A stretch of DNA of 64,000 nucleotides from positions 1-64,000 of the forward strand of contig NZ_CVTD020000028.1 in NCBI RefSeq assembly GCF_002904165.1, in the 5' to 3' direction. This stretch comes from Herbinix hemicellulosilytica (lineage in GTDB: Bacteria; Bacillota; Clostridia; Lachnospirales; Lachnospiraceae). The notes below the pieces were generated by a model that did not search any database, was not told the DNA's origin, and was given only the letters and a program-made list of their open reading frames with translations. This document shows positions 15,358 to 63,742 of this stretch, in pieces (the first letter of the stretch is position 1; each line of letters opens with the position of its first letter). The translations under genes and the position numbers were made by a program.

Positions 15358-15640
15358 TAAATATCGGGAAAACGCTGTGAAGAGAAGAGTAATCGGTGAA
15401 TGTGGTCGACAGAGAACCCCGGCAGCTGAGAAGGGGGGACTTACGGAAACCGACGAAGATGGCCTCGGAGCGGCACACCGAGGAAGTAATTCTTAGGCTG
15501 TGACGGCGGCATCCGTTATCATGCTAGGCTGTATTATTTTGCAGCGACTGAGGCCTGTATCGCGAGATATAGGCGAATTAAAGTGGTACCACGGGAAGTC
15601 CTCTCGTCTTTAAGTTTAAAGACGGGAGTTTTTTATTGGT
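15358..15640 (+). promoter_or_regulatory. T-box leader, methionine-specific
   Basis: A tRNA-sensing riboswitch controlling metG. Stem I has the apical AGAGAACCCCGGCAGCTGAG motif and the specifier region CGAAGATGGCC, where ATG at 15459-15461 reads methionine. Stem II (CCTCGG/CCGAGG) follows. The antiterminator has the T-box AAGTGGTACCACGG near 15581-15594, and the terminator is CTC-CGTCTTTAA/TTAAAGACGGGAG followed by T6. The T-box UGGU matches an A discriminator base. Uncharged tRNA-Met should favour antitermination. Confidence 0.92.
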
Positions 15641-54643: not shown

Positions 54644-54955
54644 AATTATACAGATAATATTTGTAAATTTATATATGTAAAACCGATGAGCAAGAGTAGT
54701 AAAAATTGCTGAATGTTTTCAGAGAGCCGCCGGCGGTGGGAAAGCGGTAACAGGAGCAATTTTGAATGGACTTGTGAGGGAAGCCCGAAATCATGGGAGA
54801 GTAGGCGCTTACGGGGATCCTGCCCGTTATCAGAAGGATGCATATGATTGTATGCATAAGACGAGGTGGCCGTTTTTATTCGGCAATTAGGGTGGTACCG
54901 CAGAAGCTTAAGCTTTTGTCCCTGCGTTTTGCAGAGACAAAGGCTTTTTTTATTA
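54644..54955 (+). promoter_or_regulatory. T-box leader, tryptophan-specific
   Basis: tRNA-sensing riboswitch controlling trpBA. Stem I has the apical AGAGAGCCGCCGGCGGTGGG part. The specifier region TTTGAATGGACTTG has TGG at 54767-54769 in the usual GAA-NNN-A context. The T-box AGGGTGGTACCGCAG is at about 54889-54903. The terminator has an AGC-TTTGTC-CTGC/GCAG-GACAAA-GCT stem and T7 (54911-54952). The specifier fits the downstream Trp genes. The box has UGGU, which would pair with an A discriminator base, or by wobble with G. Confidence 0.9.
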
Positions 54956-57519: not shown

Positions 57520-57548
57520 TTGACTTTTGCATGAATAAAACATATAAT
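57520..57548 (+). promoter_or_regulatory. Sigma-A promoter of the Met/Cys leader ORF
   Basis: TTGACT (57520-57525), 17 nt, TATAAT (57543-57548). The transcript starts near 57555, about 40 nt before the small ORF. Confidence 0.8.
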
Positions 57549-57595
57549 GTTTATATGTTTAGTATGAATTATTAAACCGGAAAGGAACAGAAAGC

Positions 57596-57718
57596 ATGAA
57601 TAAAGATTTTATCCTATTTAGCAATAATAATTCTTTTGATATGGATATGCGAATGATGTGCATGCAGGGCATGTGCATGCTTTGTTGCGCCCTAAAAGAA
57701 TATCCGGATATCGGCTGA
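57596..57718 (+). CDS. Met/Cys-rich small ORF, probable leader peptide (40 aa)
   Basis: 40 codons from ATG 57596 with AAAGGA nine or ten nt upstream to TGA 57716-57718. Residues 16-31 contain seven Met and four Cys (MDMRMMCMQGMCMLCC). The ORF lies between a consensus promoter and a strong terminator. Codons for the last residues (Tyr-Pro-Asp-Ile-Gly) include CCGGATATC (57704-57712), complementary to the terminator's 3' side (57762-57771) except one bulge. I infer a leader that makes ribosomes stall when charged tRNA-Met or tRNA-Cys is scarce. A stand-alone metal-binding or RiPP-like peptide is an alternative. Confidence 0.65.
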   Translation: MNKDFILFSNNNSFDMDMRMMCMQGMCMLCCALKEYPDIG

Positions 57719-57746
57719 TAGGATAAATCTATTCTTGTATGCCAAG

Positions 57747-57781
57747 AGCAGTCAGGATAGAGATATCCTGGCTGCTTTTTA
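57747..57781 (+). terminator. Strong terminator/attenuator after the Met/Cys ORF
   Basis: 13-bp stem (AGCAGTCAGGATA/TATCCTGGCTGCT with one G-T pair), a GAGA tetraloop of the GNRA class, and five T residues. Its 3' arm can instead pair with the end of the small ORF. The following 57782-57972 holds an ACCGGA/TCCGGT hairpin (57834-57850) but no promoter I can support. Confidence 0.85.
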
Positions 57782-57972: not shown

Positions 57973-59091
57973 ATGAAAGAGCGTTTGTGGAATACATTTA
58001 AAGAACTGGCCGATATCTATAGCCCGTCATTTGGGGAACGCCGGTTTTGTGATGTTTTGAAAGAAAAGTTTGCGGCTTTGGATATAGAGTTAATAGAAGA
58101 CGGAGCAGGCAAAGAAATCGGAGGAAATAGCGGGAATTTATACGGATTTATACCGGGAAAATTAAATGAAGCTCCTATCCTTTTTTCAGCTCATATGGAC
58201 ACGGTCGAACCTGCAAAGGGAAAAAAAGCCATCCTGCATGAAAGTGGAAATATTACATCGGAAGGAAGTACCATATTGGGCGCGGACGATGTTGCCGGAA
58301 TCACAGTAATTATAGAAGCGGTTAACAGGCTTAAAGAGCAAAATATAGCCCACAGACCGATAGAACTGCTTTTTACCGTTGCGGAGGAACGGTACGGTGC
58401 CGGATCGGCGGCCTTTGATTACAGTCTTATTAAGGCAAAAGAGGCTTATGTTCTGGATTTAAGCGGGCCTATAGGAGATGCTGCCAATGCAGCTCCCACT
58501 ATATTTTCCTTTGAAATTAACGTTTACGGCAAGGCCGCCCATGCCGGGTTTGCTCCGCAGGACGGAATCCATGCCATTGAAGTTGCGTCAAACGCCATAG
58601 CCAGACTTCCTCAGGGAAAGCTACCCTCAGGTTTGACTTTTAACATAGGCCAAATAAGCGGGGGCAAGGCAGGCAATATCGTTCCCGACTTGTGTACCGT
58701 TAAGGGAGAAATAAGAAGCCTTGACCATAAAGCCGTGATTTCCCACTGGGATAAGGTTGTTGAAGTTTTCATTGAAGAGGCAAAGAAAAAAGGGGCTGAG
58801 GTTGAAGCCAATAATAAGATAGAGATAAGAGCTTATGAAACCCCACTTCATCACAGAGTAGTACGCCGCTTTATCCGTGCCTGTGAAAATTTGAATTTAC
58901 CGTGCAATATTCATTCCACATTCGGAGGAAGTGACCAAAATAATTTTTCCCTGCATGGAATAACGGGACTTGTAATTGCCTGTGGCATGAATGAGGTTCA
59001 TAGCCTTCGGGAATACAGCAATATAAACGAGTTGGAGAAATGTGTAAAACTTGTTATGGAGTTGATAAAAGGTGGGGAGGTGAAGGAATGA
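57973..59091 (+). CDS. M20-family metallopeptidase, PepT-like
   Basis: Zinc aminopeptidase or tripeptidase acting in the cytoplasm. 372 residues. Zinc ligands are His in SAHMDTVEPAKG (about 73-84) and Asp in ILGADDVAGIT (about 97-107), with catalytic Glu in TVAEERYGAGS (about 136-146). The lid domain (AAHAGFAPQDGIHAIEVA) and the final IACGMNEVHSLREY complete the family pattern. AGAGGTG before the ATG. Its stop overlaps the start of the C39-like gene (ATGA). First structural gene after the Met/Cys attenuator, so it may release sulfur amino acids from peptides. Confidence 0.87.
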   Translation: MKERLWNTFKELADIYSPSFGERRFCDVLKEKFAALDIELIEDGAGKEIGGNSGNLYGFIPGKLNEAPILFSAHMDTVEPAKGKKAILHESGNITSEGSTILGADDVAGITVIIEAVNRLKEQNIAHRPIELLFTVAEERYGAGSAAFDYSLIKAKEAYVLDLSGPIGDAANAAPTIFSFEINVYGKAAHAGFAPQDGIHAIEVASNAIARLPQGKLPSGLTFNIGQISGGKAGNIVPDLCTVKGEIRSLDHKAVISHWDKVVEVFIEEAKKKGAEVEANNKIEIRAYETPLHHRVVRRFIRACENLNLPCNIHSTFGGSDQNNFSLHGITGLVIACGMNEVHSLREYSNINELEKCVKLVMELIKGGEVKE

Positions 59092-59708
59092 AAATACCGT
59101 TACAATACCAGCGGACCGAATATGATTGCGGACCGACCAGCCTGCTTAACGCGATAAGTTTTTTAATAGACCGGGAGGACTTTCCGCCCGATATATTAAG
59201 GCACTGCATGATGTATACACTGGACAGCTATAACGAAAAAGGGGAAGCGTATAAGAACGGCACATCTAAAATGGCTATGATTTTTCTGGCCGGTTGGCTT
59301 AACGAGTATGCCAGAGTAACAAAATTTCCTATCTATACCGAAACCTTAAGCGGTAAAGATGTTTACATAAGAGAAGGAAGCAAAATTATCGAAGCCTTAA
59401 GACAGGGTGGGGCTGTAGTTGTCAGGGTGTTTTTGGATTGCGGTCACTATATTACACTGACAGGAATTTCAGATAACGCTATAGAAGTTTTTGATCCTTA
59501 TTATCAGGAAACCCTTTCATACAAAGAAGAAATAAGCATAATACACGACAAGCCTTTTTCAGCCAACAGGCGTGTGGCGTTTGATGTTTTTAACAGGGAA
59601 GAAAATACGCCTTATGCGCTGGGGCCTGTTGAAAACAGGGAAGCAGTAATACTTTTTAACACCAATACAAGAAAAACCCCGGAAAAAACGATTGAGTATT
59701 TCTTATAA
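59088..59708 (+). CDS. C39-like papain-fold peptidase
   Basis: 206 residues, no signal peptide, no membrane or ABC domain, unlike bacteriocin-processing C39 proteins. The Cys is in RTEYDCGPTSLLNAI (residue 14), the His in DCGHYITLTGI (about 126) and the Asp in EVFDPYYQE (about 142), a full C-H-D set. The start overlaps the preceding peptidase by 4 nt. A peptidase or acyltransferase of papain fold is likely; the substrate is unknown. An upstream ATG at 59040 is inside the M20 gene and has no good ribosome site. Confidence 0.78.
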   Translation: MKIPLQYQRTEYDCGPTSLLNAISFLIDREDFPPDILRHCMMYTLDSYNEKGEAYKNGTSKMAMIFLAGWLNEYARVTKFPIYTETLSGKDVYIREGSKIIEALRQGGAVVVRVFLDCGHYITLTGISDNAIEVFDPYYQETLSYKEEISIIHDKPFSANRRVAFDVFNREENTPYALGPVENREAVILFNTNTRKTPEKTIEYFL

Positions 59709-59726: not shown

Positions 59727-60893
59727 TTGGCATACTATAAGAATTTTGAAACGGCCCTTATCCATGGAGGTGTTCCCGGAGATGCTGCTACCGGGGCGGT
59801 GAACATACCTATTTATCAGACTTCTACTTTTGAACTGGACGGGATAGGTAAGCTTCGTTCCGATTGGGATTATTCAAGAACGGGAAACCCTACCCGAAAA
59901 GCTTTGGAAGACCTTATTGCCCAGTTGGAAGAAGGAACACATGGTTTTGCCTTTTCCTCCGGTATGGCTGCAATCGATGCTGTACTTCACCTCTTTAAGA
60001 CTGGAGACAGTGTAATAATTTCAAAAAACGTATACGGCGGAACGTTTCGCATCCTTGACAAAATATTTAAGCAATACGGGCTGAATTACAAAATCGTAGA
60101 TTCAACCGATCTTGCTGCGGTTAAAGAGGCTTTCACCGGGGATGTAAAGGCAGTACTGTTGGAAACTCCGGCTAATCCCCTGCTTTCAATAACAGATATT
60201 GCAGAGGTAGCTAAAATAGCAAAAGCCAATGGGGCTCTGACTGTGGTTGACAATACCTTTATGACTCCCTATTTGCAGCGGCCGTTAAGTTTGGGAGCTG
60301 ACATTGTGGTACATTCGGCAACCAAATACCTGGGAGGCCACAGCGATTTAATTGCAGGCCTGGTGGTAGTAAAAGATGAAGAACTGGCACAAAGGCTTCA
60401 TTTTATCCAAAATGCCATTGGCGCTATAGCACAGCCTTTTGATTCATTTCTGCTTATACGAAGCATTAAAACTTTGGCTGTCCGAATGGATACCCATGTT
60501 GCCAATGCGGAAAGAATAGTGGATGCCCTGCAAAAAAACGAGGCGATAAAAAAGGTATATTATCCGGGGAATTCTTCATCAAAAGGGTATGAAATTCATA
60601 AAAAACAGGCAAAAAACGGCGGTGCCATGATTTCATTTGAACTGAAGGACAATTATGACATCTATAAATTTTTTGAAAGCCTTAAACTGATTGCCATGGC
60701 GGTAAGCCTGGGAGGAGTAGAAAGCCTAATTTGCCACCCCGCCACAATGACACATGCTTCGATTCCAAAGGAAATTCGTGAAGAAATGGGGATATCTGAA
60801 AGACTGATACGTTTGTCTGTGGGTATAGAAAATTACGAAGATCTTATTTGCGATCTGTTTTCAGCCATAGAAGAAGCCCGGATAAGGGTGTAA
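59727..60893 (+). CDS. Cys/Met-metabolism PLP enzyme (cystathionine gamma-synthase/lyase family)
   Basis: PLP-dependent enzyme of trans-sulfuration or direct sulfhydrylation. 388 residues from TTG 59727, which has GAAAGGG at 9 nt; the ATG at 59718 is too close to it. The PLP-lysine is in [16 protein letters not shown] (about 195-210), with [12 protein letters not shown] and [11 protein letters not shown] binding the cofactor phosphate. YGGT is typical of cystathionine synthase, beta-lyase and gamma-lyase, and differs from the YGCT of methionine gamma-lyases. Length excludes the longer MetY type. Immediately upstream of the nitrogenase-like genes. Confidence 0.88.
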
Positions 60894-60923: not shown

Positions 60924-62399
60924 ATGGCAAATATAAATTTAACTCTTCCGGAAGTTCAGATAAGGGAAATCCGAATAAATTCGATAACAGGATATCACGG
61001 AGATGCAAAAGAATTGGTTGAAGCCGGAAAAAGCGGCCTAAAGGATAAGGACCGTTCATTCAGCCAGTGTATGGGCTGTGCGACCTCAAAAGCCGCCTGT
61101 ATGACCATACTTATTCAGGATGCGGCGGTAATCAGCCACGGACCCGTAGGATGCTCATCCTGTTTACATGAATTTGCTTTCACATACAGGGTAAATTCCC
61201 CCTTAAGAGGTATAGAAAAACCCACGCCCCGCCGCATATTTTCCACAAATTTGCAGGAAAAGGACACGGTTTACGGAGGAAATATAAAACTGGCTGCAGC
61301 CATCCGAGATGTTTATAACCGTACCAAGGCCAATGCCATATTTGTACTTACTACTTGTGCCGCCGGAATTATCGGAGATGATGTGGAAAGCGTCTGCAAC
61401 GAGGCGGAAGAGGAACTGGGGATTCCGGTAGTGGCTATTTTCTGTGAGGGCTTTCGGTCAAAAGTCTGGACTACAGGTTTTGATGCGGCCTATCACAGTA
61501 TTGCAAGAAAGCTTATCAAAAAGCCCCGCAGACGCCGTCAGGATATGATCAACGTTATAAATTTCTGGGGAAGCGACGTGTTTGCCGATTGGTTTGAGCC
61601 ATTCGGGGCAAAGCCTAATTATATTACACCCTATTCAACGGTAGATGGCCTTAAATATTCCAGCGAGGCGGCGGCAACCGTCCAGGCCTGTCAGACCCTG
61701 GGAAGTTATCTAGGAGCGGTACTGGAGCAGGAATTTGGGGTTCCCGAGGTACCTGCGGCACCTCCTTACGGGATTGCCCAAACCGACCGGTGGTTTAAGG
61801 CCTTAGGAAAGGTGCTGGGAAAAGAAGATATAGCGGAAAAAATTATTGAGGAAAAGAAAAAAGAGTATTTGCCAAAAATAGAAGCCCTAAGAGAAAAGCT
61901 GAGAGGAAAAAGGGCATATGTGACAGCCGGAGCCGCCCACGGGCACGGACTTTTGATGGTACTTAAGGAACTGGGGTTGGAAACAACCGGTGCTGCCATT
62001 TTCCACCATGATCCCATTTATGACAACAAAAGAGAAGAAAATGACCAGCTAGCCATGGGAGTAAACGATTACGGAAACGTGCCTAACTTTAATGTATGTA
62101 ACAGGCAGGAATTTGAACTTGTAAATGCCCTAAACCGTATCAGGCCCGATGTGCTTTTGGCAAGGCACGGAGGAATGACCCTTTGGGGTGCTAAGCTTGG
62201 AATACCGTCACTTTTGGTGGGAGATGAACATTTTTCAATGGGTTATGAAGGTTTAGTTAATTACGGAGAGCGGTTACTGGAAGTAATAGAAAATGATGAG
62301 TTTGTAAAAAACCTCGAAAAACATGCCATAAATCCCTATACAGAATGGTGGTTAAAACAGCCGACTTACTATTTCCTGAAAGGAGGAACCGGGATATGA
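60924..62399 (+). CDS. Nitrogenase component-1 alpha-like (NifD-like) subunit
   Basis: 491 residues, oxidoreductase nitrogenase component 1 fold. P-cluster-type cysteines are at C52 (CMGCATSK), C77 (SHGPVGCSSC) and C145 (TTCAAGIIGDD), matching NifD Cys62, Cys88 and Cys154. The FeMo-co ligand Cys275 matches C256 in VQACQTLGSYLGAVLEQEFGVP, and His442 matches H436 in DEHFSMGYEG. Extra cysteines occur at 49, 59 and 80. Sequence around these sites is far from true NifD, AnfD or VnfD. Substrate not known; a carbon-sulfur reductase like MarD is possible. ATGA overlap with the next gene. Confidence 0.85.
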   Translation: MANINLTLPEVQIREIRINSITGYHGDAKELVEAGKSGLKDKDRSFSQCMGCATSKAACMTILIQDAAVISHGPVGCSSCLHEFAFTYRVNSPLRGIEKPTPRRIFSTNLQEKDTVYGGNIKLAAAIRDVYNRTKANAIFVLTTCAAGIIGDDVESVCNEAEEELGIPVVAIFCEGFRSKVWTTGFDAAYHSIARKLIKKPRRRRQDMINVINFWGSDVFADWFEPFGAKPNYITPYSTVDGLKYSSEAAATVQACQTLGSYLGAVLEQEFGVPEVPAAPPYGIAQTDRWFKALGKVLGKEDIAEKIIEEKKKEYLPKIEALREKLRGKRAYVTAGAAHGHGLLMVLKELGLETTGAAIFHHDPIYDNKREENDQLAMGVNDYGNVPNFNVCNRQEFELVNALNRIRPDVLLARHGGMTLWGAKLGIPSLLVGDEHFSMGYEGLVNYGERLLEVIENDEFVKNLEKHAINPYTEWWLKQPTYYFLKGGTGI

Positions 62400-63742
62400 G
62401 CTTATCTGGCGGAATAATCGAACAAACCAGACTGACCTGCGCCATAGGGGCTATGCAAACGGTAGTGGCAATCCCAAGAGCCGTACCGATACTTCACTCC
62501 GGTCCCGGATGCGGGGAAATGATAGCTGGATTTTTTGAACGGTCGACCGGTTATGCCGGGGGGACTACATCTCCCTGTACAAATTTTTCGGAAAAGGAAG
62601 TAGTATTCGGCGGGATAAACAGACTCAGGCAGATAATTGAAAATACATACAAGGTACTTAATACGGATTTGCAGGTGGTTTTGACCGGATGTACGGCAGG
62701 TATAGTAGGCGACGATGTAGACAGTCTGGTAGCAGAGTTTGCCGGACAGGGAAAACCTATAGTGTCGGTTGAAACCGCAGGCTTTAAAGCAACCAACTAT
62801 GAATCCCACAGTCTCGTGGTAAAGGCCATTATAGACCAGTATGTTGATCTCTTTATAGAGGATAATGTGCCAAGATCAGAAAAAAATACGGTTAATCTGT
62901 TTGCATCCATACCCTATCAGGACCCGTTCTGGAAGGGCAATCTGGCTGAATACAAGAGGCTCCTTGCAGGTATCGGACTTAAGGCAAATGTCCTGTTCGG
63001 TCCTGAATCGGGAGGGGTAAAGGAATGGCAAAGGATTCCGAAAGCCAACTTTAATATCCTTGTGTCTCCCTGGTACGGAAAGCCCATAGCAGACCACCTG
63101 AAATTAAAATACGGGCAGGATTACACATGGTTTCCTCATGTTCCTGTCGGAGCCAACGAAACGGAAAAATTCTTAAACCAGGTACTGGAGTTTGCGATTA
63201 ATCAAGGGGCTCAAGTAGACGAAAATAAAGCCAGGACTTTTATAAAGCACCAGTCGGAAGCATATTATCAGGAAATTGATAATTTAGCCACATTCCTTCT
63301 GGAATTCAGATACGGGCTTCCGAATCATGTACATATACTTCATGACGCAGGATATGTGGTTGGACTTTCCAAATTTTTGCTTCATGAGGTAGGAATAATA
63401 CCGAAAGAGCAGTTTGTCACCGACGGCACACCGGAAAAATATCAGGATCTAATCCGCAATGATTTAAAGAGTACCAGCGAAAAGAGGGAAATTCCGATTT
63501 ATTTTGAAACGGACGGAGGAAAGGCACAGGAAATCCTAAGGAGTATCCGGCATAAAGGCAGAGGCCTTATCATAGGTTCCGGCTGGGATAGGGAGCTGGC
63601 AAAAGAAAAAGGATATGATTTTCTTTCGGCAGCCGTACCTACACCGTACCGCCTGGTCATGACCACCAACTATGCCGGATTTTCGGGCGGGCTAAGAGTA
63701 ATAGAGGATATTTATATGATGGTTCTTTCTACTTATGCATAA
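62396..63742 (+). CDS. Nitrogenase component-1 beta-like (NifK-like) subunit
   Basis: 448 residues, partner of the preceding subunit. C14 (LTCAIGAM), C39 (SGPGCGEM) and C99 (TGCTAGIVGDD) match NifK Cys70, Cys95 and Cys153, and C61 (SPCTNFSE) matches a further conserved Cys. FGGINRLRQII matches the NifK FGGxxN pattern. AAAGGAGG before ATG 62396; the start overlaps the previous stop. With all P-cluster cysteines kept in both subunits, electron transfer to a buried cofactor is likely. MarK, BchB-like and NifN-like proteins share the fold; NifN is less likely given the ligands in the partner. Confidence 0.83.
   Translation: MSLSGGIIEQTRLTCAIGAMQTVVAIPRAVPILHSGPGCGEMIAGFFERSTGYAGGTTSPCTNFSEKEVVFGGINRLRQIIENTYKVLNTDLQVVLTGCTAGIVGDDVDSLVAEFAGQGKPIVSVETAGFKATNYESHSLVVKAIIDQYVDLFIEDNVPRSEKNTVNLFASIPYQDPFWKGNLAEYKRLLAGIGLKANVLFGPESGGVKEWQRIPKANFNILVSPWYGKPIADHLKLKYGQDYTWFPHVPVGANETEKFLNQVLEFAINQGAQVDENKARTFIKHQSEAYYQEIDNLATFLLEFRYGLPNHVHILHDAGYVVGLSKFLLHEVGIIPKEQFVTDGTPEKYQDLIRNDLKSTSEKREIPIYFETDGGKAQEILRSIRHKGRGLIIGSGWDRELAKEKGYDFLSAAVPTPYRLVMTTNYAGFSGGLRVIEDIYMMVLSTYA

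Follow-up and report, generated by a model that had tools for sequence, protein, structure and literature searches.

Positions 57520-57781 of the 64,000-nucleotide stretch of Herbinix hemicellulosilytica DNA analysed here (contig NZ_CVTD020000028.1; called the window) probably constitute a leader-peptide transcription attenuator, lying in front of an operon with a nitrogenase-like gene pair. Attenuation by a Met/Cys-rich leader peptide, as proposed in an earlier sequence-only reading, is well supported by the recurrence of such leaders before sulfur genes in relatives, whereas the antiterminator named in that reading is not conserved. Judged from sequence, the leader probably acts as a sensor switching on sulfur-scavenging genes, including the nitrogenase-like set, when Met/Cys is short.

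Promoter, leader ORF and terminator

57520-57548, + strand: sigma-70-type promoter TTGACT-N17-TATAAT (consensus match 11/12)
57580-57587, + strand: Shine-Dalgarno-like GAAAGGAA (sequence)
57596-57718, + strand: 40-codon leader peptide MNKDFILFSNNNSFDMDMRMMCMQGMCMLCCALKEYPDIG (ORF; homologues in eight other genomes)
57641-57688, + strand: Met/Cys run, 11 of 16 codons (sequence, shuffles)
57747-57776, + strand: intrinsic terminator, 13 bp, GAGA loop, U run 57776-57780 (folding; homologous in nine genomes)

The consensus promoter, the 40-codon ORF with its 11 Met or Cys codons out of 16 and the 13-bp GNRA-loop terminator of the sequence-only reading were all recovered. Among 32 promoter-like sites between 54000 and 64000, one scores 12 and one besides the leader promoter scores 11. 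The same reading had regarded a separate strong promoter for the gene at 57973 as evidence against it, and the + strand from the terminator to 57973 contains no promoter-like site scoring at least 9/12. With 11 Met/Cys residues, the leader ORF is the richest of 336 ATG-initiated small ORFs of 20-60 amino acids in the window (the next have 9 and 7), and 20,000 dinucleotide-shuffled versions of the leader contained no Shine-Dalgarno-preceded small ORF with at least 11 Met/Cys, the highest count being 10. The start, stop and -10 of the leader ORF are kept in the homologues described below, and the Shine-Dalgarno-like sequence and promoter are present in the window. Eleven Met/Cys after the start codon, with sulfur genes downstream, correspond to the pathway codons of leader-peptide attenuators and, as expected for an attenuator, an intrinsic terminator is located between the ORF and the first gene. 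Its arms (57747-57759 and 57764-57776) form 13 bp, or 14 bp if a closing G-U is counted, with an MFE of -23.1 and a z score of -6.89; equally stable shuffles were not obtained (0/200).

The downstream operon

57973-59091, + strand: PepT-like M20 peptidase, heading the operon (TIGR01883 above cut-off)
59088-59708, + strand: C39-like peptidase (PF13529)
59727-60893, + strand: Cys/Met-metabolism PLP enzyme, cystathionine gamma-synthase/lyase-like (PF01053; best NCBIfam matches below cut-offs)
60924-62399, + strand: nitrogenase-like alpha subunit, nearest PDB entry MarD (PDB sequence search)
62345-63742, + strand: nitrogenase-like beta subunit, nearest PDB entry MarK (PDB sequence search)

Comparison with the PDB led to 9fmg_A (8.7e-128) and 9d9u_A (1.3e-127) for the alpha subunit, the next entry following at 3.4e-34, and to the chain common to 9d9u and 9fmg (8.6e-109; next 5.7e-14) for the beta subunit. 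9FMG is described as the MarDK2H2 structure (PMC12552129). On sequence the pair is much nearer to MarDK than to NifDK, as expected for a methylthio-alkane reductase. Past the window follow FeMo-cofactor (NifX-like), radical SAM, second Cys/Met PLP, NMT1-type ABC transporter and NifH-family genes, the radical SAM gene being NifB-like as named by eye. The operon is predicted to release methanethiol from organic sulfur and use it for methionine.

Upstream of the leader, trpB and trpA (named from sequence) are preceded by a T-box at 54677-54926, and a second T-box leader lies at 15368-15614. The genome has a second, distant nitrogenase-like pair close to genes for an ABC transporter (L039:7464-10321, G000:C10). 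The analysis retained 80 loci from 150 alpha-subunit relatives; many of these loci are incomplete, and only L041 among them showed the M20 and C39-like peptidases that head the operon (57973-59708).

Homologous leaders in other genomes

Covariance models of the leader (R1 and R2) were used for the homologue search. The same element was found in eight other genomes, nine including the window, the carriers being C. sporosphaeroides, F. jeddahensis, a Lachnoclostridium MAG, Acetivibrio straminisolvens, three more genomes of the A. straminisolvens family (one of which we take to be A. thermocellus) and the genome G563. The nine leaders are 31-40 codons long, of which 7-11 beyond the start codon are Met/Cys, and a homologous terminator accompanies every one. 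All nine also share, with changes, the -10 region plus the adjoining downstream bases, GGAT ahead of the spacer, the spacer itself and the terminator. The first gene behind the leader is metN-like in seven, cystathionine-synthase-like in one and the M20 peptidase gene in the window, where genes called metN or metQ are those with their best match to the NCBIfam MetN/MetQ models, below the curated cut-offs. A cis element retained in front of differing genes, as here, bears the hallmark of a regulator. As the relatives were partly found via the nitrogenase-like gene, the link of the leaders to that cluster partly reflects selection; in G563, no nitrogenase-like gene is present within the 19.5 kb read.

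In its own genome the window site was the only match of R1 below E 0.1, and a DNA search of 33 other genomes of the genus yielded no leader, two short matches being inspected. Among 397 genomes of the family, R1 gave seven matches with the window alone real, the six weak ones in the 396 others (L123-L129 inspected) being without a leader. Real matches were 4/6 in 40 genomes holding relatives (L134-L136 inspected), 3/5 in 200 genomes of the G436 family (two already known from the 40-genome search; L138 and L139 inspected) and 4/4 in 14 genomes of the G461 family (one already known). With R2, G468 itself was the sole real match of three in 299 genomes of its family (L144 and L145 inspected), and 58 genomes of the G461 order returned the same four as the G461 family. 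Searches over 40 genomes use stricter filters, by which weak matches are lost.

Met/Cys-dense ORFs at relative loci

Genes resembling metN, metI and metQ are found near the cluster in 10 of the 12 loci mapped, and Met/Cys-rich small ORFs with a ribosome-binding site and a terminator precede metN-like, cystathionine-synthase-like, sulfhydrylase-like, nflD and nflH genes. In a census over 81 loci (the 80 relatives and the window's own stretch), with at least 5 Met/Cys in 12 residues counted as dense, such a small ORF preceded a terminator at 9/214 sites, compared to a shuffled mean of 0.11 and a highest value of 2 in 100 shuffles. Ranked by excess over 60 shuffles, Met+Cys came first of 190 residue pairs (9 vs 0.08), followed by Cys+Pro (6 vs 0.23), while in the raw counts Met+Cys does not stand out (Ile+Lys 17, Cys+Ile 11, Ile+Leu 11). 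A gene matching the operon's own set, which counts any ABC ATPase, follows 8/9 of the dense sites vs 93/205 of the others (Fisher p 0.011). The census rules on genes and distances omit the window leader and the leaders in L045, L104 and L113; the nine sites include three homologues of the window leader (L049, L095, L117) and a pair of alike leaders in L050.

A second class of alike leaders with terminators, sharing SA-x-C-x-M-R in the peptide, was observed at L050:5845-5958, L050:9797-9910 and L052:2970-3083, two of them directly before a nitrogenase-like alpha subunit.

Candidate competing hairpins

57704-57712, + strand: alternative strand of the sequence-only reading, pairs with 57762-57771, not conserved (alignment of homologues)
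57721-57726, + strand: GGATAA, with GGAT unchanged in 9/9 homologues; pairing with the antiterminator strand possible (alignment)
57728-57742, + strand: candidate antiterminator, 5' strand (spacer) (folding)
57748-57761, + strand: candidate antiterminator, 3' strand, overlapping the terminator 5' arm (folding)

Read from the sequence, the earlier proposed pairing of 57704-57712 with 57762-57771 is possible in the window (9 pairs, one bulged U), but the eight other homologues have either a different segment at the aligned position or none. The pairing 57728-57742/57748-57761 appears to be the better candidate and lies at the same place in the homologues; as in classical attenuators, it would sequester the terminator 5' arm. 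GGAT continues into the stop codon in the eight homologues other than the window.

Under the assumption that a ribosome masks 13 nt from the A-site codon, a ribosome on the last Met/Cys codon leaves RNA that folds into the spacer/5'-arm antiterminator in 8/9 homologues, L095 preferring a local hairpin. When the ribosome is placed at the stop codon instead, the outer antiterminator helix is lost in 8/9 homologues, where weak folds of -1.9 to -4.7 kcal/mol (a short inner helix) remain, and in the window the antiterminator persists at -9.9 kcal/mol. There the stop codon lies 8 nt upstream of its position in the homologues, so that a ribosome at the stop would leave most of the spacer 57728-57742 free. 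Counted from the last Met/Cys codon, the stop codon comes 8th in 7/9 homologues and 10th or 11th in the other two. Spacer-plus-arm RNA alone forms the antiterminator in 9/9 homologues, but window RNAs folded with both terminator arms gave the terminator every time, and therefore the attenuation model needs kinetic control.

Twenty leaders were given to a comparison of antiterminator energies with shuffles and 18 were tested, L050a and L113 having too little free RNA. The combined p was 0.068 (duplex) and 0.088 (fold), changing to 0.095 without five near-copies and 0.033 without four; among single leaders p fell below 0.05 for none by duplex and for one by fold (L045, 0.020). Co-variation of the antiterminator arms was not seen: when arms were swapped among seven of the nine homologues, 2652/5040 permutations were as good as the own pairing. 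The L137 spacer pairs best with its own arm (-10.3 vs -3.8 to -7.1), yet four other spacers pair better with the L137 arm. From the weak shuffle p values, the failed arm swapping and the terminator-only folds, the antiterminator 57728-57742/57748-57761 is plausible but not proven, and with an energy not clearly beyond shuffles, no demonstrated co-variation and poor masking by a ribosome at the stop codon of the window leader, it is the weak point of the model.

As we infer leader translation, ribosome stalling, antiterminator and signal, transcription would begin just past the -10 and a ribosome would translate the Met/Cys-rich leader. With Met-tRNA and Cys-tRNA charged, the terminator 57747-57776 would end most transcripts. 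If Met-tRNA or Cys-tRNA were scarce, the ribosome would stall in the run 57641-57688, the spacer 57728-57742 could pair with the terminator 5' arm 57748-57761, and the polymerase would enter the sulfur-scavenging operon.

A control of the terminator by other means than the ribosome, for example an RNA-binding protein or a riboswitch of a new kind, with the ORF merely coupling translation to transcription in general, would agree with an antiterminator that is statistically unproven and with a terminator that is itself conserved in sequence. We consider it improbable, as Met/Cys-dense ORFs recur with unrelated terminators and no known RNA family matches. In Rfam no family matched the leader, and 14 relative loci gave only tRNA. 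The leader did not match the covariance models of the SAM riboswitch or T-box families; the one SAM riboswitch of the genome lies elsewhere.

A motif around the likely transcription start

57552-57566, + strand: 15-bp motif TATATGTTTAGTATG around the likely transcription start, candidate sulfur-regulator operator (sequence matches)

This motif, which lies around the transcription start of sulfur operons, looks like the operator of a DNA-binding regulator, with an Rrf2- or LysR-type regulator as candidate. In the 3.04-Mb genome, 57552-57566 is the sole perfect match to TATATGTTTAGTATG; with one mismatch 15 matches were found vs 12 for the reversed control. Exact matches to TATATGNTTARTATG number 11 in the 80 relative loci vs 0 in 10 shuffles, and a looser pattern occurs at 20 places, some near operons without this leader. 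Together with a gene of the Rrf2 family that precedes the leader in L137 and LysR genes that follow leaders in L054 and L104, these matches would suit control at initiation by a DNA-binding sulfur regulator at 57552-57566, the leader having little effect. Such a scheme leaves the Met/Cys codons and the terminators unexplained and is in our view very unlikely as the whole explanation; initiation control and attenuation may act jointly on the operon.

A functional peptide as the product of the ORF (a RiPP precursor, or a small protein that binds metals or thiols), matured by the M20 and C39-like peptidases, is most unlikely: two peptidase genes do lie directly downstream, the peptide is Cys-rich and the peptides of the homologues are partly alike, but the first gene is metN-like or cystathionine-synthase-like in the eight homologues, peptide length and sequence vary, unrelated leaders have the same Met/Cys content and a terminator separates ORF and genes in 9/9 homologues. 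The differing identity of the first gene between genomes led us to reject a RiPP precursor; a conserved link to modification, protease or export genes was not found.

Relation to known leaders

SAM riboswitches and T-boxes are the expected Met and sulfur sensors in Clostridia. In Firmicutes both also act on sulfur amino acid genes through premature termination, but the leader matches neither. It shares with trp- and his-type attenuators a promoter, a Shine-Dalgarno-led short ORF with pathway codons, a terminator before the first gene and a possible competing hairpin, and differs in its combination of Met and Cys codons, its host in Clostridia and a less clear antiterminator.

In the accessible part of a 2010 survey, leader peptides outside Proteobacteria and Actinobacteria are, the ermC type aside, only its own His leaders in bacilli (PMC2965389). 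For metL of Streptomyces lividans, the part of the report available describes a proposed Met/Cys-rich leader before metNIQ with a peptide ending in RCMCRRMCAF (PMC8079986), a short peptide before a methionine transporter operon. In contrast to the present leader, metL is described there as leaderless and its authors found no typical Rho-independent terminator (PMC8079986); from what is given of the peptide, no likeness beyond Met/Cys to the present ones was apparent by eye. Excerpts on Mycobacterium and other Actinobacteria describe short ORFs with Cys codons before cysteine genes, without terminators (PMC1262725). In mycobacteria, attenuation is reported to respond to cysteine (Canestrari 2020, cited by PMC9094748 and PMC13236596) and is called translation attenuation in PMC13236596. 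As far as these excerpts go, the actinobacterial leaders differ from the present one in being leaderless, without a conserved terminator and with Cys codons only.

None of the best-ranked literature matches listed, which cover few subscription papers, describes a clostridial Met/Cys leader combined with an intrinsic terminator. Leader-peptide attenuation is already known, and the present leader, as read from its sequence, would add this variant. The chances appear evenly balanced that a family of Met/Cys leader peptides, of several origins and transferred from one operon to another, serves Clostridia as a combined sulfur-amino-acid sensor controlling metNIQ and methylthio-alkane-reductase-like operons, in the role that SAM riboswitches and T-boxes play elsewhere and atop a DNA-binding regulator. 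If so, charged Met-tRNA and Cys-tRNA would join the signals read by classical terminator-based attenuation, and a control for nitrogenase-like sulfur-salvage operons would be proposed. Four carriers fall in the A. straminisolvens family (A. straminisolvens itself and three others, probably including A. thermocellus), so the idea can be tested in a workable anaerobe.

Other Met/Cys-rich small ORFs, with MCSDCDM or MKDDCDMCDMCDM, were observed at L040:9435-9524, L095:14274-14384, L050:13307-13480 and L075:18645-18809. Each overlaps the beginning of a gene resembling a sulfhydrylase or metQ; terminators were not seen there, and the arrangement perhaps reflects translational coupling.
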